Shown here piece after piece: positions 5,280 to 36,010 of a DNA stretch of 38,790 nt. The stretch is from Candidatus Staskawiczbacteria bacterium RIFCSPHIGHO2_02_FULL_42_22 (lineage in GTDB: Bacteria > Patescibacteriota > Minisyncoccia > Minisyncoccales > Staskawiczbacteraceae). Under the pieces are notes generated by a model. It was given only the letters and a program-made list of their open reading frames with translations, did not search any database and was not told the origin of the DNA. Each line of letters begins with the position of its first letter. Positions within the stretch are counted from its first letter, which is position 1. A program made the translations under genes and the position numbers. The stretch covers positions 1 to 38,790 of the forward strand of contig MHOT01000026.1 in the NCBI GenBank assembly GCA_001820175.1, read 5' to 3'.

Positions 5280-5295
5280 GCTTTTGCTTCGCAAA

Positions 5296-5452
5296 AGAAA
5301 CTCTAAACTCTAAATCCTAAACCCTAAATAACTACGAAATCCTAAATTCTAAATTCTAAAATCTAAAATGAAGTTTGTTTAGAATTTAGAATTTAGTATT
5401 TAGAGTTTCGCGAACACTTAGAATTTAGAGTTTAGAATTTAGGGTTTCACAT
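5296..5452. repeat. Intergenic foldback, CTAAATC heptad class
   Basis: Left half is CTCTAAACTCTAAATCCTAA in 7-bp steps; right half is TTTAGAATTTAGAGTTTAG. The right arm runs into rplO and supplies its last codons (Lys-Pro-stop). Confidence 0.9.
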
Positions 5453-8661: not shown

Positions 8662-8847
8662 TCACCAACTTGATTTTTTGACTCCTGGTATTTCTCCTTT
8701 ATTGGCCAATTCCCTGAAACAAATTCTGCAAAGTCCGAATTTTCTCATAAAACCATGCCTTCTCCCACACTTAAAACAGCGTCTTTGCAGGCGTGAAGAA
8801 AACTTTGGTTTCATTTTTGCTTTTGCTTCTTGTGATGTCTTAGCCAT
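8662..8847 (-). CDS. rpsN: Small ribosomal subunit protein uS14, zinc type
   Basis: 61 residues with the zinc-ribbon cysteines CFKCG and CRICF, so the type Z form. It ends GVKKSSW followed by TGA, which is the normal end of the family and shows that TGA is read as stop here. The start follows the small hairpin CTTTTACGAAGTAAAAG. Confidence 0.96.
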
Positions 8848-8865
8848 AATGCTTTTACTTCGTAA

Positions 8866-8941
8866 AAGAAACTCTAAACTCTAAATTCTAATTTCTAAAT
8901 TCTAAAACGGTTTAGGATTTAGAGTTTAGGATTTAGGGTTT
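8866..8941. repeat. Intergenic foldback, CTAAATT heptad class
   Basis: The cleanest example: AAACTCTAAACTCTAAATTC on one side, TTTAGGATTTAGAGTTTAGG on the other, and the loop AAAACGG is itself one heptad. Provides the end (Lys-Pro-stop) of rplE. Confidence 0.93.
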
Positions 8942-9499
8942 ATTTTCTTTCAGTGGGAATCCCATTAACCTGAATAATTCTAATCCTTCTTGGTGGGTTT
9001 TAGCGTTGGTAGATACGGTAACTTCTAAACCGAAAATGGTTTTTTCTTTTTCGATAAAAATTTCGGGGAATGAAATGTGCTCTCGAAAACCAAGATTCAT
9101 ATTACCTCTTTTATCAATCGACGAGGGGTTTAAACCTTGAAAATCCCGAGATCGCGGCAGTGATAAATAAATAAACCGTTCCAAAAAATCCCACATTTTG
9201 TCCTTTCTCAATGTTACCATGGCCGCAATTTGAAGGCCCTCCCGAAGGGCAAACCCCGCAATGGATTTTTTGGAAGCAACTAATCGGGGTTGTTGTCCAG
9301 CAATTAATGCCATATCTGAAAGGATGATATTTTGGACTTTTTCCCGTTCACCCGAAGTTTTATTGACCACTTGCTTACCAAAAGAACTATTCAGGGTAAC
9401 TTTGGTAAGGTGAGGAACCGCCATCGGATTTTTGTAACCGAACTTAACCATCATGGCAGGCACAACTTGTTCGTTATATTTTTTTCGTAAGCTTTCCAT
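8933..9499 (-). CDS. rplE: Large ribosomal subunit protein uL5
   Basis: 188 residues; 5S rRNA-binding protein. MESLRKKYNEQVVPAMM start and the conserved LPRSRDFQGLN and GLEVTVSTNAKTHQEGLEL segments are present. The last residues and TAA are encoded by the AAACCCTAA heptads downstream. Order rplX-rplE-rpsN is standard. Confidence 0.97.
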   Translation of the reverse strand: MESLRKKYNEQVVPAMMVKFGYKNPMAVPHLTKVTLNSSFGKQVVNKTSGEREKVQNIILSDMALIAGQQPRLVASKKSIAGFALREGLQIAAMVTLRKDKMWDFLERFIYLSLPRSRDFQGLNPSSIDKRGNMNLGFREHISFPEIFIEKEKTIFGLEVTVSTNAKTHQEGLELFRLMGFPLKENKP

Positions 9500-10443: not shown

Positions 10444-10675
10444 ACACTTTCCCAATAACCCTAAAATGCTTATCTTTGCTTATTGGGGTGGTTTCTTCGA
10501 TTATTACTTTATCCCCCACCTTATATTCCTTTGCCTCATCATGGGCCTTATATTTTTTATGGGTTTTGTATCTCCTTTTGTATTTTGGATGCTCTTTGAT
10601 GCTTTCCACCTTCACTACCACGGTTTTTTGCATTTTATCGGAAACCACAATTCCGGTTAATTTTTTCTTAGGCAT
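10442..10675 (-). CDS. rpsQ: Small ribosomal subunit protein uS17
   Basis: 77 residues from ATG (MPKKKLTGIVVSDKMQKT); GDKVIIEETTPISKDKHFRV is the conserved C-terminal OB-fold part. The track start MRSKSI is a TTG inside the small hairpin CTTTTGCGAAGCAAAAG and is rejected. Binds the 5' domain of 16S rRNA. Confidence 0.96.
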   Translation of the reverse strand: MPKKKLTGIVVSDKMQKTVVVKVESIKEHPKYKRRYKTHKKYKAHDEAKEYKVGDKVIIEETTPISKDKHFRVIGKV

Positions 10676-10687
10676 AATGCTTTTGCT

Positions 10688-10765
10688 TCGCAAAAGAAAC
10701 TCTAAATTCTAATTTCTAAATTCTAAAACGGTTTAGGATTTAGAGTTTAGGATTTAGGATTTCGC
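10688..10765. repeat. Intergenic foldback, CTAAATT heptad class
   Basis: AAACTCTAAATTCTAATTTC against TTTAGGATTTAGAGTTTAGG with loop AAAACGG. Nearly the same sequence as 8866-8941. Ends rpmC (Lys-Ser-stop). Confidence 0.9.
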
Positions 10766-10942
10766 TTCTCGAATTATGGTTAACATTCTTGCGATTTCTT
10801 TTTTGACCGTATGAATTTCCTTAACATTCTTTAATTGATTAGCGGAAAACTTAAACCGAAGATCGTTCAGTTTTTTTCCATGATCTTGTACCATCTTTTT
10901 TAATTCAGTAATGTCTTTTTTTCGTAATTCTTCTGTCTTCAT
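10754..10942 (-). CDS. rpmC: Large ribosomal subunit protein uL29
   Basis: 62 residues, two-helix protein: MKTEELRKKDITELKKMVQD and the conserved LKNVKEIHTVKKEIARMLTI. Sits between rplP and rpsQ. The last residues and TAA come from the downstream heptads. Confidence 0.94.
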   Translation of the reverse strand: MKTEELRKKDITELKKMVQDHGKKLNDLRFKFSANQLKNVKEIHTVKKEIARMLTIIREAKS

Positions 10943-11560: not shown

Positions 11561-12264
11561 TATGTAAACTTCTCTCCTTTATAAATCCACACCTTAATTC
11601 CAATAACTCCGTACGTACAATACGCTTCACATTGGGCATAGTCAATATCGGCTCTAATGGTCTGGCGTGGAAGCCGTCCTTGTTTTAACCATTCTTTTCT
11701 GGCAATTTCTACTCCATTCAGTCGCCCCGAGACCTCAATTCTCACCCCCTTTATTTCCGGATTTTGCATCACCCGATCCAATACCATTTTCATCACCTGC
11801 CTAAAAGGAATTCTTTTTTCTAACTGCTGGGCAGCCCATTGAGCGACCAGCATAGCAGAAATCCATGGATTTTTTATTTCTTTAATATCTATTTTTATTT
11901 CCCTTGCTCCGGCCGCCCAGGCCCTGGCCAAGGCGGTTTCCTTTGCCCCTCCTGGTCTTGCCGATGAAAACACTTTATCGTGCATCTTTTTTACAATCAT
12001 TTTTTTTAAGCTTTCTATTCCTTCACCCCCTCGCCCAATAATAAGTCCTGGCCGCGCCGATTCGATGATAATATTTAATTTATTAGCTGAATGTTCTATT
12101 TCTATATTGGAAACCGACGCTTCCACTAAGATTTTTCGCAAAAAATCCTTGATCAAGAAGTCCTCTTCTAGATATCGTGGCATATTGGCACCATAAAAAC
12201 CGCGAACATTCCAGTCCTCTACGCCTTTTATCCTAAATGATTTTGGGTGAACCTTGTGACCCAT
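11560..12264 (-). CDS. rpsC: Small ribosomal subunit protein uS3
   Basis: 234 residues with start MGHKVHPKSFRI, the KH motif (PGLIIGRGGEGIESLKKMI) and the C-terminal domain (GVRIEVSGRLNGVEIARKEW). Part of the mRNA entry channel. It begins right after a small hairpin (TTTTACGAAGTAAAA). Confidence 0.97.
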   Translation of the reverse strand: MGHKVHPKSFRIKGVEDWNVRGFYGANMPRYLEEDFLIKDFLRKILVEASVSNIEIEHSANKLNIIIESARPGLIIGRGGEGIESLKKMIVKKMHDKVFSSARPGGAKETALARAWAAGAREIKIDIKEIKNPWISAMLVAQWAAQQLEKRIPFRQVMKMVLDRVMQNPEIKGVRIEVSGRLNGVEIARKEWLKQGRLPRQTIRADIDYAQCEAYCTYGVIGIKVWIYKGEKFT

Positions 12265-12276
12265 AACTTTTACTTC

Positions 12277-12438
12277 GTAAAAGAAATTCTAAATTCTAAT
12301 AATTACTAGGGAGGGAGGAATGTGAAAAATGCGTTTTTCATATTCCGACCGAGCGACGTAATTATATAAGCAACCGAAGTTACTTCTATTTCTAAATCCT
12401 AAAGCGTTTTAGAATTTAGAGTTTAGGATTTAGAATTT
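12277..12438. repeat. Intergenic foldback, CTAAATT heptad class with extra inner segment
   Basis: AATTCTAAATTCTAA and GTTTAGGATTTAGAATT arms. The centre has an additional inverted pair around GAATGTGAAAAATGCGTTTTTCATATTC. Between rplV and rpsC. Confidence 0.8.
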
Positions 12439-12782
12439 CATTTTTTGGGATTAATTTCACTTATCACTAAAGTAATGTGTGACGTCCGTTTCATGATAGG
12501 ATATGCCCTGCCCCGACTCATGGGGTGCGATCGCTTTAATTTGGGACCTTCATCCACCGTAACCTCGGATATTACCAGATTATCTTCAATTAATTGGTAG
12601 TCATGGACCGCAGATGCTACGGCGCTATTGAGTAGGCGCAATACCGGATCTGCGCTTCGCTTTACGGTAAATTCCAACAAGGCCCTGGCGTCAGCCACGT
12701 TCTTGTTGCGTATTAAATCAATCACTTGACGTGATTTCCGGGGAGCAGTTCTTAAATTTCGTAATACGACTTTTACTTCCAT
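12438..12782 (-). CDS. rplV: Large ribosomal subunit protein uL22
   Basis: 114 residues; lines the exit tunnel. MEVKVVLRNLRTAPRKSRQV at the N-terminus and RAYPIMKRTSHITLVISE near the end are the family marks. Ends with TGA. Between rpsS and rpsC. Confidence 0.96.
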   Translation of the reverse strand: MEVKVVLRNLRTAPRKSRQVIDLIRNKNVADARALLEFTVKRSADPVLRLLNSAVASAVHDYQLIEDNLVISEVTVDEGPKLKRSHPMSRGRAYPIMKRTSHITLVISEINPKK

Positions 12783-13208: not shown

Positions 13209-13297
13209 TTAAACATTTGACATTTGACATTTGACATTTGACATAACGAACTGTACGGAACGTTGTCAATTTGTCAATGGTTAATTGTCAATTGTTA
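13208..13297. repeat. Intergenic foldback, TTTGACA heptad class
   Basis: Four perfect ACATTTG units, then a centre with ACGAACTGTACGGAACGTTG, then TGTCAAT-type units in 7-bp steps. Between rplB and rpsS. Confidence 0.92.
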
Positions 13298-14158
13298 CTT
13301 CTTTTTACGTCTTTGTATAATAAATTTATTCGTCCACTTTTTACGATATCTCGTTTTCACTCCCAATGCCGGCAAGCCCCATGGTGTTTTTGGATGCTTC
13401 AATCCAATGGGCTGTCTGCCTTCTCCTCCGCCGTGTGGATGGTCAACGGGGTTCATAGCGCTTCCTCGTACATGCGGCCTCCTTCCCTTCAATCGTGATT
13501 TACCTGCTTTCCCTACCCTATAAAATCTATTTTCCGGATTTGAAACCATTCCAATAGTAGCAAAACATTCACCCTTTACTTTTCGTATTTCACTTGAAGG
13601 CATTTTTATATCAGTAAAACCATGTTCTTGCGCTAATACTTGAGCAGCATTCCCGGCAGATCGTACCAATATTCCCCCTTTTCCCGGCTCAAGTTCAATG
13701 TTGTACACGTTGGTCCCAACCGAAATATTTTTCAACTTCATCCGGTTTCCTGGAGTCAAAGGAGCTGCCTCTGAAAATACCACCGTATCGCCTACTTTTA
13801 ATCCTTGTGGAGCCACAATGTATTGCCTTACTTTACTTTGGCTCGCCGAAGCATTTTGCGAAGGCAGCTCTGAATATTCTATTAATGCAATAAAGCCGGT
13901 TCTATTCGGGTCATATTCAAGAGCGATTACCTTGGCCGGCATGTCCATTTTGGTCTGGGAAAATTCTATGATTCGGTACAACTTTTTTACTCCGCCACCC
14001 TTATGGCGCGTGGTAATTCTACCTGATGCCTTTGACCTTCCAACACTGCGTCTTACGTATTTTACAAGCGATTTTTCTGCACGTTTTTTTGTAAGCAAAG
14101 AAAAATCAATCCCGGTCATCCCTCGCCTCGATGGAGTTGTAGGTTTATAAACTTTCAT
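13295..14158 (-). CDS. rplB: Large ribosomal subunit protein uL2
   Basis: 287 residues, full length. The C-terminal signature AMNPVDHPHGGGEGRQPIG near the peptidyl transferase centre is intact, as is GRITTRHKGGGVKKLYR. Between rplW and rpsS. Confidence 0.98.
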   Translation of the reverse strand: MKVYKPTTPSRRGMTGIDFSLLTKKRAEKSLVKYVRRSVGRSKASGRITTRHKGGGVKKLYRIIEFSQTKMDMPAKVIALEYDPNRTGFIALIEYSELPSQNASASQSKVRQYIVAPQGLKVGDTVVFSEAAPLTPGNRMKLKNISVGTNVYNIELEPGKGGILVRSAGNAAQVLAQEHGFTDIKMPSSEIRKVKGECFATIGMVSNPENRFYRVGKAGKSRLKGRRPHVRGSAMNPVDHPHGGGEGRQPIGLKHPKTPWGLPALGVKTRYRKKWTNKFIIQRRKKK

Positions 14159-14161
14159 AAT

Positions 14162-14278
14162 TTTGGAGTAATCACGAATATACGAATTTGCGTTAATATA
14201 CCAATATACGAATATGTGCCACGCCGCGATTTGTATATTCGTATATTATTTTAGATTTGTATATTCGCGATTACTCCT
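14162..14278. repeat. Intergenic foldback, CGAATATA class (about 8-bp period)
   Basis: TAATCACGAATATACGAATT against TTTGTATATTCGCGATTACT; loop GCCACGCCGCG. Between rplW and rplB. Confidence 0.85.
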
Positions 14279-14694
14279 TAAAATAGTTCTATCTTTTGTC
14301 CTTCTTTAACCGTCACTACGGCTTTGGTGAAGGCCTTTTTAAATCCTTCGGTTCTACCCAAACGTCTTTTTTTACGCGGCGCTTTTATAATATTTACATC
14401 CAGCACATTCACCCCATAAATTCCCTCTACCGATTTTTTTATTTCCGGTTTATTGGTATTGTTGTATACCTTAAAGGTATATTTATTCTTTTCGGCCAAA
14501 TCAGTGGCTTTTTCAGAAATGTGCGGCTCTTTAACAATATTATAAGAAAATCCCTTGCCCGCAGTAGCTTTAGCGGAGGATGATTCTACTTTTACAGTGT
14601 TTTCAACTTTCGGTGTAACTGAAATCTTCGGAGCATTTTTCTCTTTCGCTTTATCTTTTTCCTTTTTTCTTTTTAAAAAATCTAGTAATGCCAT
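14278..14694 (-). CDS. rplW: Large ribosomal subunit protein uL23 with N-terminal extension
   Basis: 138 residues. The L23 domain is residues about 48-138 (NIVKEPHISEKATDLAEKNK to VTVKEGQKIELF). The first 47 residues are a Lys-rich extension. Residues about 38-47 (ESSSAKATAGKG) come from a short GC-rich palindromic insert (14555-14580) like those at 24121 and 27491. Docking site for trigger factor at the tunnel exit. Between rplD and rplB. Confidence 0.95.
   Translation of the reverse strand: MALLDFLKRKKEKDKAKEKNAPKISVTPKVENTVKVESSSAKATAGKGFSYNIVKEPHISEKATDLAEKNKYTFKVYNNTNKPEIKKSVEGIYGVNVLDVNIIKAPRKKRRLGRTEGFKKAFTKAVVTVKEGQKIELF
14555..14580. repeat. Short GC-rich palindrome inside rplW
   Basis: GCCCGCAGTAGCTTTAGCGG resembles GCCTCGCCGAAGCTTTAGCG (24121-24150) and the palindrome in the gene at 27141. 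In rplW it is translated in frame as a linker. Confidence 0.6.
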
Positions 14695-14707
14695 AATTTT
14701 TACAGCG

Positions 14708-14780
14708 TAAAAATAAATCCTAAACTCTAATTTCTAAATTCTAAAACGGTTTAGGATTTAGGGTTTAGGGTTTAGTATTT
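14708..14780. repeat. Intergenic foldback, CTAAATT heptad class
   Basis: CCTAAACTCTAATTTCTAAA against GGTTTAGGATTTAGGGTTTA with centre AAAACGG. Runs into the end of rplD. Confidence 0.9.
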
Positions 14781-15414
14781 ATGATTTGCCACCAAAGGTG
14801 GCTTCTATATCCTTAATTCCATCCTTACTTACCAGCACATACTTATAATTCAATAAATCCACCACATTCAAATTCCGTGCTTCCGATACTCCGGTTTTGG
14901 CAATGTTTCTTGCCACTAAAAATGTCTTTTTATCCGCATTCGGGGAAACAACCAATCTGCTATTTGTTTTAATGGGCAAATTTTTAATAGTCGCAGCCAT
15001 CTCTTTTGTTTTTGCTTCTGGTATTTGCAGTGAATCCACTACCACCAAGAGATTATTTTTCACTTTTTCCGAAAGCACCATATACAAGGCCTTTCTCCTC
15101 ATTTTTACTGGTAACGCTTTGGCATAATTTTTATCATTTCGTGGGCCTCCCGAGACCCCTCCGCCCTTCCAAATTGGGGACCTGGTCGATCCGTGTCGCG
15201 CCCTTCCCGTTCCTTTCTGTCGCCAGGGTTTTCGTCCTCCACCCCGCACTTCTCCTCTGGTTTGGGTATGAGCACCCACTTGCCTTTTGTTTGCAGTTTG
15301 TGAAATCAATACTTGGTGCACCAAATCAGCGTTCATTTTGACGTCAAAAATTTCTGCAGGTAATACTGAGTTTCCTATCACTTCGCCTTTTTGATTATAA
15401 ACATCAACCTTCAT
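14779..15414 (-). CDS. rplD: Large ribosomal subunit protein uL4
   Basis: 211 residues from ATG (MKVDVYNQKGEVIGNSV). The long loop RGEVRGGGRKPWRQKGTGRA that enters the tunnel is intact. The track start 93 bp upstream lies in the ATGGAAC repeat. Between rplC and rplW, although a mini-gene and a 182-bp palindromic element separate it from rplC. Confidence 0.96.
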   Translation of the reverse strand: MKVDVYNQKGEVIGNSVLPAEIFDVKMNADLVHQVLISQTANKRQVGAHTQTRGEVRGGGRKPWRQKGTGRARHGSTRSPIWKGGGVSGGPRNDKNYAKALPVKMRRKALYMVLSEKVKNNLLVVVDSLQIPEAKTKEMAATIKNLPIKTNSRLVVSPNADKKTFLVARNIAKTGVSEARNLNVVDLLNYKYVLVSKDGIKDIEATFGGKS

Positions 15415-15884: not shown

Positions 15885-15952
15885 ACTTCGTCATCGCGAA
15901 CCGCAGTGAAGCGATCTTTTTAAAAAAATCTAACTATTAGATTGCTTCGCTC

Positions 15953-16134
15953 TATGGAACAAACATTATGAAACCGCACTAAACTCGCCGCAGGTTTGGC
16001 AATATTGGGCGGCTTGGAGCAAAAAGTTTGTGAGGCGTAGCCGAAGCTACGCCGAACAAACTTTTTGTGAAACCTGCCCAAGATTGGCAAATCCGGCAAG
16101 GGTTGGAGTGCGGTTTCATAATGTTTGTTCCATA
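15953..16134. mobile_element. 178-bp TA-flanked palindromic element, copy A
   Basis: Arms TGGAACAAACATTATG and perfect inverse; the core of 178 bp lies between TA and TA. The centre is a GGCGTAGCCGAAGCTACGCC hairpin. Read from the left end it is open for all codons (WAAWSKKF, FCETCPRLANPARVG) and it is also open on the other strand. It sits inside an older ATTGCTTCGC...GCAATGAC repeat (15890-16146). Confidence 0.9.
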
Positions 16135-23418: not shown

Positions 23419-23829
23419 CTATAATAATAAATCTAAAAATTCTTCTACGGTTAATTCTGCTTGTTCAATAATTGACTTTATGGACATCACATCCAGAAAC
23501 CGCACTTAAGTTGCCGGCGGTTTGGCAGTATTGGGCGGCTTGGAGCAAAAAATTTGTGAGGCCTAGCCGTAGCTACGCCGAACAAATTTTTTGTGAAAAC
23601 TGCCCAAGATTGCCAAATCCGGCAAGACTTGGAGTGCGGTTTCAGGATGTGATGTCCATAAGGTCTTTGGATTAAGATCTTTTCTGTGAAAGGGAATGGT
23701 TACTCTTAAATGGGATTTTTCAGGGTGACGAAGTTGAACATGGCTCCCAGATTGGTGATATTCGTAAAAGCGACCTCTTTTTAATGCTCTCAATACCAAT
23801 AACGAAGGAATCCTAGGGAGTTTTGGCAT
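23419..23829 (-). pseudogene. hicA: HicA toxin gene split by a 178-bp palindromic element
   Basis: HicA is an mRNA interferase. Codons 1-57 (MPKLPRIPSLLVLRALKRGR, catalytic His in GSHVQLRH, then DLNPKTL) are followed by the element, then in the same frame KSIIEQAELTVEEFLDLLL and TAG. Removing 180 bp gives a normal 76-residue HicA. In this copy and orientation the insert has TAG and TAA in frame, so translation stops after 88 residues and the C-terminal strand and helix are lost. hicB is directly upstream. Confidence 0.88.
23479..23660. mobile_element. 178-bp TA-flanked palindromic element, copy B, in hicA
   Basis: Arms TGGACATCACATCC and inverse; core 23481-23658, TA at both sides. The plus strand is open for all 60 codons (VWQYWAAWSKKFV, FCENCPRLPNPARLG); the strand used by hicA has two stops, one from a single change in the central palindrome (GGCTAGGCC). 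Confidence 0.92.
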
Positions 23830-24114: not shown

Positions 24115-24178
24115 CATCTCGCCCGCCTTCGCTAAAGCTTCGGCGAGGCCCGTATAAAAATTGCTATTTTTATCGGGC
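24115..24178. repeat. Short GC-rich palindrome and hairpin after rpsG
   Basis: GCCCGCCTTCGCTAAAGCTT with inverse (24121-24150), then TAAAAATTGCTATTTTTA hairpin reaching into the rpsG stop. Same GC-rich type as in rplW and in the gene at 27141. Confidence 0.65.
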
Positions 24179-26926: not shown

Positions 26927-27145
26927 TTATAATGCGAATCTCGTTTGGCAATCGGAGTTAGTTGCGGCAGAATTTTGCCGCCAGGTTCGGAAAAATTTTT
27001 AGGCGTAGCTTGCCTACGACGAGCACATTTTTACCAAGCTTTGCGGAAAAATTATCCGCAAATAACCCGCCAAAAGGCGAGGATCGCCCCTCTTGGGCGG
27101 CCCGAAACTCTTTTACATTTTTGCCAAACGAGATTCGCATTTATA
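26927..27145. mobile_element. 209-bp palindromic element at the end of gene 27141
   Basis: Arms ATGCGAATCTCGTTTGGC and inverse, flanked by TTATA on both sides. The centre AGGCGTAGCTTGCCTACGAC resembles the centre of the 178-bp elements, and an inner CCGCCAAAAGGCGAGGATCG palindrome resembles the insert at 17010. The TAA stop of the neighbouring gene is kept. Confidence 0.8.
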
Positions 27146-28241
27146 GTTCAAGTACGCCTACTAATTGTTTTATCAACGACACTACCACCGGCGGAGGCAT
27201 TAAGCTATTAGAAGCTACTCCCTGATCATCTAACACTTCCCAGGACTTTTGTAAAACTTCAACTTTTCCAGAGGATTCATTAAAAGTGTAATGATACTCC
27301 GGCGTAATTTCATAGTCATCGGCAAATTCAGTGGTTTTTTCTTTAGGAATTGAGTTTCGTAGTAGAATTTTTGATATGCCATGCATAGCTTGGATTTGAC
27401 TCATGAGCAGTTCATCTTTTTCTAAACGGGAACGAATCGGCTCAATACCCTGCAAATCCCCTTCCTTGGTAACCATTCTTGGGCCCGCACCCTCCTTTGC
27501 CAATGCTTCGGCGGGCAGGCACGCCGGATTGTCGCACATTAGGTAAAATTGATTTTTCTCTTTGTCGTACTGAACATTTTTTGTCGGCAATAACTTTACG
27601 TTGCGGGAAGTATTGCACTGCGGGCAAATCACACGGTATTTTATGCGCTCATCAATAATATTGGTTGGCACATCAATGAGCACAAAAATATCCGGGTCGT
27701 TTCGATAATCAACCAAATGCTTGAAAAATAATGAATAAGAAACCTGATCGACATCGCGCGGGAATCCGTCAATAAAAATGGCTTTTTTACCAAGCCGTGT
27801 AATTTCTTTTTCTACGAGCGCCAGAATTAATTCCGATGGCAACAGCACCTTAGTGGACCGCTCTTCCATGGCCGTTATAAGCTCTGGCAGTGGTTTGGGC
27901 CCCCGATATTTTTTTTGCAAAAATTCCACCAGTTCCTGTTTTTTTACCGGATCTTTTAAAACTTCATCGAATGAGCGGATTAAGTCCCCCACTGATAAAT
28001 GCTCTACTCTTTCAGGACTAATAATTTCTTTAAACATTTTGGAATACGTTCCCTTCCCCGAAGATTTTTTTCCTAAAAGATAGACAATAAACGTGTTATT
28101 TTTCAAATAATCCTGCAGTTTTTTAATTTCCGGCCCCGCCTTGTATTCAAAATACTCCCGACGCCTGTTGGCATCGGTTAAGTCAAAGGTCTTGCCTTCA
28201 GAAGTTTTAGTACTAAAGATTGGAAATTCGATGTCTTTCAT
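27141..28241 (-). CDS. Adenylate-kinase-like protein, long form
   Basis: 366 residues. After a 45-residue N-terminal extension come the P-loop GKKSSGKGTYS (about 57-67), FIDGFPRD, and a LID with two Cys pairs (CPQC and CDNPAC) that may bind zinc. The C-terminal 80 residues are an extra helix-rich part. LPAEALAKEGAG in the LID is encoded by a GC-rich palindromic insert (27491-27519). Probably a nucleoside monophosphate kinase; its difference in role from adk at 2880 is unknown. The stop touches a palindromic element. Confidence 0.85.
   Translation of the reverse strand: MKDIEFPIFSTKTSEGKTFDLTDANRRREYFEYKAGPEIKKLQDYLKNNTFIVYLLGKKSSGKGTYSKMFKEIISPERVEHLSVGDLIRSFDEVLKDPVKKQELVEFLQKKYRGPKPLPELITAMEERSTKVLLPSELILALVEKEITRLGKKAIFIDGFPRDVDQVSYSLFFKHLVDYRNDPDIFVLIDVPTNIIDERIKYRVICPQCNTSRNVKLLPTKNVQYDKEKNQFYLMCDNPACLPAEALAKEGAGPRMVTKEGDLQGIEPIRSRLEKDELLMSQIQAMHGISKILLRNSIPKEKTTEFADDYEITPEYHYTFNESSGKVEVLQKSWEVLDDQGVASNSLMPPPVVVSLIKQLVGVLEL
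27491..27519. repeat. Short GC-rich palindrome inside gene 27141
   Basis: CCTTTGCCAATGCTTCGGCG with inverse; translated in frame as PAEALAKEG next to the second Cys pair of the LID. Confidence 0.6.
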
Positions 28242-30455: not shown

Positions 30456-30687
30456 CTTTTTTAACGGCCGTTGATTTTTTATTAAAATAAAAAATATAAG
30501 CCATCTCTAGTATGCCAAAAGTATTTACTACCAACATGGCAATAAACCAGTTTCTTTGCCCATTTTTTGCCGCACGCCAAAGAGCTATCCCCTTCCAGAT
30601 GAGTCCCCAAATAAGCAACACCAAAAACAGCAAGGTGTACTTTGGGTCGTTTAATATATTAATGATGGCGGTGGTTTGTGAATCCAT
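30439..30687 (-). CDS. DUF5652 family membrane protein
   Basis: 82 residues with two membrane segments (about 18-35 and 46-68) and a Lys-rich tail. LIWGLIWKGIALWRAAKNGQ and NTFGILEMAYIFYF match DUF5652 of Patescibacteria. Upstream of and overlapping the thioredoxin-like gene. Function unknown. Confidence 0.82.
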   Translation of the reverse strand: MDSQTTAIINILNDPKYTLLFLVLLIWGLIWKGIALWRAAKNGQRNWFIAMLVVNTFGILEMAYIFYFNKKSTAVKKDEKTN

Positions 30688-30705
30688 AGCTTTTGCTTCG
30701 CAAAA

Positions 30706-30780
30706 GAAATTCTAAATTAAAAATCCTAAATCCTAAACCGTTTGAGAATTTAGAATTTAGAGTTTAGAGTTTAGGATTTC
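30706..30780. repeat. Intergenic foldback, CTAAATT heptad class
   Basis: AATTCTAAATTAAAAATCCT against TTTAGAATTTAGAGTTTAGA. Ends the SpoU gene (Lys-Ser-stop); a CTTTTGCGAAGCAAAAG hairpin precedes the DUF5652 start. Confidence 0.88.
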
Positions 30781-31229
30781 ATGTTTCGGATTTCATAGCC
30801 GGCTGCTCCAAACGCTACCGACACGTTCAGCGACTCTTTTTTGCCGTACATGGGCAAATAGATGACTTTATCTGATAATTCCAGGGCTTTTTTAGAAACC
30901 CCTTTTACTTCATTCCCAATTATCAGAGCCAGAGGGAATTTCGGTTTCAATTTGGTGTATAATATGTTTTTTGGCGTCTGTTCCAAAGCTACTACCAACA
31001 CTTTTTCTTTCTTTAACTTTTCTATCAATCGCCAGGTTTGTTTATGATATTCAAAGGGAATGGTTTTTTCCGCTCCTAACGCTGTCTTCGAAATTTTATG
31101 GTCTGGCGGCCGCCCGGTAATCCCGCACAAAAATATTTTCGTTACCCCCAATGCATCGGCCGTTCTAAAAATTGAACCCACATTTTCCAAGCTGCGGATA
31201 TTATCGCAAATGACATAGAATTCCTTCAT
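30771..31229 (-). CDS. SpoU/TrmH-family RNA methyltransferase
   Basis: 152 residues, SPOUT fold. Motif 1 RSLENVGSIFRTADALG, motif 2 ALIIGNEVKGVS and motif 3 IYLPMYGKKESLNVSVAFGA are all present. Transfers a methyl group from S-adenosylmethionine to a ribose 2'-OH of tRNA or rRNA; the site is unknown. No N-terminal substrate domain. Confidence 0.92.
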   Translation of the reverse strand: MKEFYVICDNIRSLENVGSIFRTADALGVTKIFLCGITGRPPDHKISKTALGAEKTIPFEYHKQTWRLIEKLKKEKVLVVALEQTPKNILYTKLKPKFPLALIIGNEVKGVSKKALELSDKVIYLPMYGKKESLNVSVAFGAAGYEIRNMKS

Positions 31230-34875: not shown

Positions 34876-34897
34876 TTGCGACACATTTACCACGACT

Positions 34898-35079
34898 TAT
34901 GGACATCACATCCAGAAACCACACTCCAAGTCTTGCCGGATTTGCCAATCTTGGGCAGTTTTCAAAAAAAATATGTTCGCCGTAGCTTCGGCTACGCCTC
35001 GCATATTTTTTGTTCCAAGCCGCCCAAGATTGCCAAACCGCCGGCGACTTTAGTGCGGTTTCTGGATGTGATGTCCATA
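34898..35079. mobile_element. 178-bp TA-flanked palindromic element, copy C
   Basis: Arms TGGACATCACATCC as in copy B; core 34900-35077 with TA at both sides. Open in both orientations (minus: WAAWNKKYARRSRSYG, FENCPRLANPARLG). Lies within a larger inverted repeat whose arms are CACGAC/GTCGTG and CGCAGTT/AACTGCG (34890-35255). Confidence 0.9.
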
Positions 35080-35263: not shown

Positions 35264-36010
35264 TCAGAATTTTGCCCAAGAATTTTGTTGATAATATTGC
35301 CATGGCCGCATCTGCTCAACCTGGGCTTTTTTAAGAATCATATCTTGAATATGCAATGCGGATTTTTTCTCAATAGCCGGCAAAAAAACGGTGTCTTTGT
35401 GCTCAAAGTTCTCATTTTGACCCTCTTCCCCGGAAATGGTAATCACAATATCGCTCATGCCCAGAATTTGATCCAACAAACTTCTTTGAATTTTAACATC
35501 TTGGATGTGGCGGTAAGGAATGACGGTTATATCTTCTGAAATTATGGAACAAACATTATGAAACCGCACTCCAAGTCTTGACGGATTTGCCAATCTTGGG
35601 CAGTTTTCACAAAAAATTTGTTTGCCGTAGCTACGGCTACGCCAAACATATTTTTTGCTCCAAGCCGCCCAATATTGCCAAACCGTCGGCAACTTTAGTG
35701 CGGTTTCATAATGTTTGTTCCATAGCCCCTTTTTAATTTTTAAATTTTTCTGGGCAATGAAAATTCCGTAGTGAATGTACTCAAGCCAACCGATGGCAAA
35801 CACCAAAACCAATGCAAATAACAAAAAGGCCAAAAAAAGAAGTAGCACATTAGCAGTCACTGCAACATAAGTTACCGGAATATAGTTTAGTGAAACTAGT
35901 CCCGCAAACAGCATGGGTACCAGCACAAAAAATACTCCACTTTTACGCAAAATCAGCATAAAAAGTGTTTTCTGCCCCAGTGGATGGTACGTATGAATAT
36001 TTTCTTCCAT
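35264..36010 (-). CDS. Bacterial PH-domain (YdbS-like) membrane protein carrying an in-frame palindromic insert
   Basis: 248 residues. Two membrane segments (about 17-42 and 50-76), then the bPH2 domain beginning IAQKNLKIKKGL. Residues 97-156 are encoded by element copy D. The domain then continues ISEDITVIPYRHIQDVKIQR, the normal continuation of KKGL in this family. Without the insert the protein is 188 residues. The insert sits in the loop between the first two PH strands and has a Cys pair (FCENC). Role of the family: membrane-associated, poorly known. Confidence 0.88.
   Translation of the reverse strand: MEENIHTYHPLGQKTLFMLILRKSGVFFVLVPMLFAGLVSLNYIPVTYVAVTANVLLLFLAFLLFALVLVFAIGWLEYIHYGIFIAQKNLKIKKGLWNKHYETALKLPTVWQYWAAWSKKYVWRSRSYGKQIFCENCPRLANPSRLGVRFHNVCSIISEDITVIPYRHIQDVKIQRSLLDQILGMSDIVITISGEEGQNENFEHKDTVFLPAIEKKSALHIQDMILKKAQVEQMRPWQYYQQNSWAKF
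35543..35724. mobile_element. 178-bp TA-flanked palindromic element, copy D, inside the PH gene
   Basis: Arms TGGAACAAACATTATG as in copy A; core 35545-35722. Target CTA: the element adds 180 bp including one TA, so the frame is kept. Open in both orientations. Confidence 0.95.

Follow-up and report, generated by a model that had tools for sequence, protein, structure and literature searches.

REPs of the GTAG and CGTC superfamilies are imperfect hairpins of 20-40 bp, and intragenic examples are known (PMC3733652). In small-genome bacteria, the palindromic elements of Rickettsia and Wolbachia (RPEs) occur as in-frame inserts in protein genes, often at solvent-exposed positions, and different families can share one gene site (PMC3767692; PMC10969869). 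RPEs have a length of about 100-150 bp (PMC3767692), and RPE-4/6 correspond to CGTC-type REPs (PMC3767692; PMC10969869). Another case of coding palindromes is that of nematomorph mitochondria, which have perfect inverted repeats of up to 284 bp in protein-coding genes (PMC6649704). No account of such elements in Patescibacteria (CPR) was found in the openly accessible literature, nor were relevant papers found with the core strings of the element described here.

The window is a stretch of 38,790 nucleotides (contig MHOT01000026.1) from Candidatus Staskawiczbacteria bacterium RIFCSPHIGHO2_02_FULL_42_22, a member of the Patescibacteriota. The original prediction held that short palindromes in the genes of uL23 and of a kinase-like protein, together with a non-coding relative, belong to one repeat type that makes small in-frame insertions. 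All three sites were present as described and, once oriented alike, were found to share one dispersed motif, although the family extends far beyond the three named members and includes a copy in uL2 that had been missed. These motifs are very probably copies of one short dispersed hairpin element that has been inserted into genes. The host genes and copies in the window are the following:

13295..14158, minus strand: host gene of uL2 (rplB)
13835..13867, minus strand: copy in uL2, decayed, a 33-nt insert that reads LPSQNASASQS
14278..14694, minus strand: host gene of uL23 (rplW), with the Pfam L23 domain
14554..14583, minus strand: copy in uL23, a decayed 27-nt hairpin with an AAG tail, in frame
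24122..24151, plus strand: copy in the non-coding DNA that separates rpsG from the next gene; hairpin at 24122-24148 with 2 mismatches
27141..28241, minus strand: host gene of the adenylate-kinase-like protein (Pfam ADK)
27489..27519, plus strand: copy in the kinase-like gene; hairpin at 27490-27516 with 3 mismatches; the gene reads the minus strand as LPAEALAKEG

The element forms a 27-28-nt hairpin that ends in CAAG or CAGG on its 3' side. The consensus of the 27-nt form is CCCGCC-TYC-GCY-AA-RGC-TWC-GGCGGG-C, after which comes the AAG or AGG tail, and the whole unit measures about 30 nt. The position-wise composition of the flanks showed that conservation stops at about position 30 and that the ends carry only this tail, with neither a GTAG nor a CGTC tag; the cross-phylum set showed an AAG-like tail as well. 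Among 42 distinct copies, 22 have C-G and 18 have T-A at the inner pair of positions 12 and 15, and two-sided changes were observed at five stem pairs. The coupling of C-G and T-A cannot be ascribed to the search, whose pattern placed no joint constraint on positions 12 and 15. It was concluded from the covariation of the inner pair that the hairpin itself is conserved. Paired cells amounted to 88.6%, and the paired fraction and the covariation score were both higher than in all 500 shuffles. The hairpin structure also outscored every slid version of the 42 copies, a control that is biased towards structure because the copies were gathered by consensus similarity.

The genome of the organism (G000; 821,145 bases in 30 contigs) was searched whole. 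At up to 5 mismatches to the consensus, it yielded 12 copies, the relative G003 yielded 16 and the relative G004 one, while reversed sequences gave no match at this threshold; in the relative G007, 20 copies were found in parts that had been picked for having matches. A covariance model was built from the 42 copies, including the three originally named sites, and, at E<1, matched the own genome at 22 places, among them these three sites and uL2, but G004 at only two, both weakly. The E-values were 6e-5 (24122), 3.7e-4 (27490) and 1.7e-3 (14557) for copies that are also in the training set of the model. Like segments in the genome, for which the original prediction had proposed a search, number about 22 copies in all by the covariance model, of which 17 lie within conserved proteins.

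This share of copies within conserved ORF alignments (17/22) compares with 49% of the genome under the same mask (p=0.009). In four other repeat families, in contrast, only 0-5% of the copies lie in conserved ORFs: 9 of 201 for the CGTC-type repeats (96% outside) and 5/106, 0/42 and 0/35 for the other three. Quicker decay of non-coding copies could add to the contrast between genes and non-genic DNA.

Evidence for insertion was obtained from 44 copies that lie in conserved ORFs of G000, G003, G004 and a part of G007. For 33 of them, one or more orthologues have a gap over at least half of the element, and for 24, every available orthologue does. Clean 27-nt copies match orthologue gaps of 10 residues and 28-nt copies gaps of 11 residues; the inserts are therefore whole codons, of 30 or 33 nt. 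The view that the motifs belong to a repeat type which makes small insertions in frame is supported. The hosts named by NCBIfam include GyrB (two copies), GyrA, RecG, SecA, RpoC and MsrB, as well as a MurE-like ligase, the CCA-adding enzyme, AspRS and TsaD. Several of the six frames of the element can be open; the added residues are mostly small and hydrophilic and, where examined, lie in turns, loops or linkers. As a separate observation, GyrA of this genome (G000 C10:3622-7392, L040) has 1257 aa and matches intein-containing models, and therefore it probably has an intein besides the copy of the element.

In the adenylate-kinase-like protein, LPAEALAKEG follows Cys241 of the LID cysteine cluster and was found in none of 21 kinase orthologues from related genomes. 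The copy is a clean insertion of 30 nt. Different inserts of 6-7 residues are present at this site in L123, L126 and L131, two of which are inverted repeats by eye. In the fold model (pLDDT 84), the insert is predicted to be coil for the most part, residues 244-247 forming a single helical turn.

In uL2, LPSQNASASQS represents 11 extra residues in the turn of a beta-hairpin, which has 2 residues in 24 of 29 relatives and other inserts in five; uL2 of Thermus is without the inserted segment. The covariance-model E-value of this copy (0.29) is weak alone, and the copy was accepted because the insertion is clean and not because of the model score. In the uL2 model, from which only the flanking strands were used (overall pLDDT 55), strands 88-95 and 111-116 flank the insert. 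This turn is a hotspot of insertion, since this genome and L093, L095, L097, L098 and L108 all carry differing inserts. That of L108 is a perfect-looking palindrome, GCCTGCCGGCAGGC, and L097 carries a copy of a second family, CCCTTCGAC..GCTCAGGG.

The copy in uL23 reads TCA TCC TCC GCT AAA GCT ACT GCG GGC AAG and gives SSSAKATAGK (residues 38-47), in the linker just ahead of the Pfam L23 domain (residue 52 onwards). The palindrome is imperfect, its left outer arm being decayed and 4 of its 27 positions being off the consensus. When 30 uL23 linkers were compared, an element-like stretch (2-4 mismatches) was found only in this genome, L094, L097 and L101, and all the others had at least 10 mismatches to the element. 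The linker is hypervariable, and other relatives carry other element types or none. Because the linker varies in this way and takes several element types, the uL23 insertion lacks a clean empty site. The copy, which was assigned by its DNA and not by an empty site, is real at the DNA level. The contrary evidence named by the original prediction, orthologues that keep the residues but encode them by non-palindromic codons, was not found among the 21 kinase orthologues or the 30 uL23 linkers.

Other repeats were recorded alongside the element. The CGTC-type repeat, with the core CGTCATTGCGAG, has about 200 copies in G000, nearly all outside conserved ORFs. A repeat of about 185 nt occurs in the window in four copies and in both orientations (15950-16134, 23476-23660, 34897-35079 and 35540-35724). 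AT-rich inverted spacers, CTAAATTCTAAA / TTTAGAATTTAG, occupy several of the gaps that separate ribosomal protein genes and also lie elsewhere:

5280-5448, AT-rich inverted spacer
8846-8946, AT-rich inverted spacer
10674-10779, AT-rich inverted spacer
12261-12443, AT-rich inverted spacer
14691-14782, AT-rich inverted spacer
30684-30795, AT-rich inverted spacer

Of 380 genomes sampled across the phylum, 37 contain the exact 22-nt core, with its allowed variants, and none contains the reversed pattern. Among the matches listed for named genomes are many Patescibacteria, Acidobacteria, Bradyrhizobium isolates, Bacteroidota, Kiritimatiellae, Planctomycetota and others. A hairpin z-score below -2 was obtained for 11 of 54 genome-specific insertions of 6-16 residues. 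Several of these hairpin insertions were seen to be a coding palindrome, CCGCCC..GGGCGAGSCTCGCCC..GGGCGG, present in several proteins, with peptides such as RPKMGEARPERAAG and ALGEPRPSKDGRD. The second palindromic family, CCCTTCGAC..GCTCAGGG, occurs in G003, G004 and G007 and has a 3' CAAG/CAGG tail like that of the main element, which suggests that the tail is a common recognition tag. It can be proposed, tentatively, that the main element and CCCTTCGAC..GCTCAGGG-CARG belong to a multi-phylum superfamily of untagged coding REPs, built of a hairpin and a 3' CARG tail, which might be moved by an unrecognised enzyme, settle in essential genes and account for a considerable part of the short insertions in the proteins of these reduced genomes.

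Several explanations of these palindromes were weighed. Convergence in coding sequence, by which Ala/Lys/Gly-rich linkers would have palindrome-like codons by chance, is favoured by the uL23 linker, which is rich in Lys and Ala and hypervariable and whose copy is decayed. Recoding and shuffling, however, rarely or never reproduce the element: real ORFs contain 9 matches at up to 4 mismatches against 2 in total in ten synonymous recodings of the proteome, the uL23 peptide reaches this level in only 0.17% of its synonymous recodings, and even 5 mismatches were never reached in 9,000 trials with codon-shuffled uL23 linkers. Convergence is highly improbable also in view of the non-coding copies, the stem covariation and the use of five or more reading frames, whose peptides differ greatly. 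The frames bear also on the idea that positive selection maintains the encoded peptide because it is useful, for example as a flexible or helical segment at the protein surface. In favour of this idea, the PASAKASAGK frame holds 28 of the 44 copies and 36 of the 44 are oriented as the host gene; four further frames are used, though, orthologues lack the insert at most sites, and other element types occupy identical sites. Selection against worse peptides would be the simplest reading of the bias in frame and orientation, and tolerance alone explains this bias; a useful peptide is very unlikely. A DNA uptake signal for natural transformation would likewise be short, dispersed and present in coding DNA. 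Known uptake signals occur about once per kb, a density far above that of about 22 copies in 821 kb, and the copies are inserts rather than mutated sites; this reading has next to no probability and was rejected for its low copy number.

Insertion of a dispersed hairpin is favoured by the different palindromic inserts at identical sites in relatives and by the 22 copies in unrelated genes. It is read from comparisons across species, and the orthologues are too diverged for base-level junctions such as a target-site duplication. The process would resemble that of a mobile element (REP/RPE-like), with the nucleic-acid hairpin as its substrate; selection would remove insertions that disrupt the reading frame or the fold, and the added peptide would be tolerated rather than useful. 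A version of this explanation that names the enzyme is that a RAYT/TnpA-REP-type Y1 (HUH) transposase, now lost from this genome or left unassembled, would move the hairpin as single-stranded DNA. The REP-like size and the hairpin with a one-sided tail agree with it, as does an association of Y1_Tnp with the element among 58 genomes (odds ratio 4.8, p=0.007, uncorrected for relatedness). PF01797 (Y1), however, was not found in the own genome, which is about 95% complete so that a gene may have been missed, while five control genomes gave matches; it is also absent from G003, which has 16 copies, whereas G042 has 15 Y1_Tnp matches yet few copies. Eight Y1 loci were examined and had no copy of the element within them, matching flanking palindromes were absent at five of the eight genes, and the element is without a GTAG or CGTC tag. 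Naming this enzyme is thus unlikely to be right, and the Y1/RAYT link was rejected on account of the absence from the own genome, the lack of copies beside Y1 genes and the uncorrected association. No mobilising enzyme was found for the element in the own genome and the relatives examined. With respect to viruses as vectors, 36 stretches with the exact core were found among 2.9 million contigs, a result that carries no information on this point.

The dispersed hairpin offers reduced genomes a repeatable route to short insertions in their core proteins, since a single unit of about 30 nt occurs again and again in gyrase, RNA polymerase and SecA as well as in ribosomal proteins. It accounts for inserts confined to particular lineages, which are able to disturb ribosomal-protein alignments and trees. 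It also raises the questions of what mobilises a 30-nt hairpin without a recognisable REP transposase and why the surviving copies are mostly genic, unlike those of the four other repeat families.

In comparison with REPs, the element is likewise a small dispersed hairpin (27 nt in a unit of about 30 nt, 22 copies) with a one-sided unpaired tail, but it has neither tag, 17 of its 22 copies are in conserved ORFs instead of between genes, and no Y1/RAYT was found in the genome. Like RPEs, it is palindromic and in frame within conserved protein genes, and different families can be found at one site; unlike them, it measures about 30 nt instead of 100-150 bp and is without the CGTC tag of RPE-4/6. 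The element was placed in neither class, because it differs from REPs in tag, in its position inside genes and in the lack of a transposase, and from RPEs in length. It shares with the nematomorph palindromes the position of inverted repeats within protein-coding genes, though those are long and perfect and the element is one dispersed 30-nt family. By analogy, it probably works like intragenic REPs and in-frame RPEs, being set apart from RPEs by description and not by sequence comparison. RPEs are known from Rickettsia and Wolbachia, whereas the element occurs both in this clade and across many other phyla.
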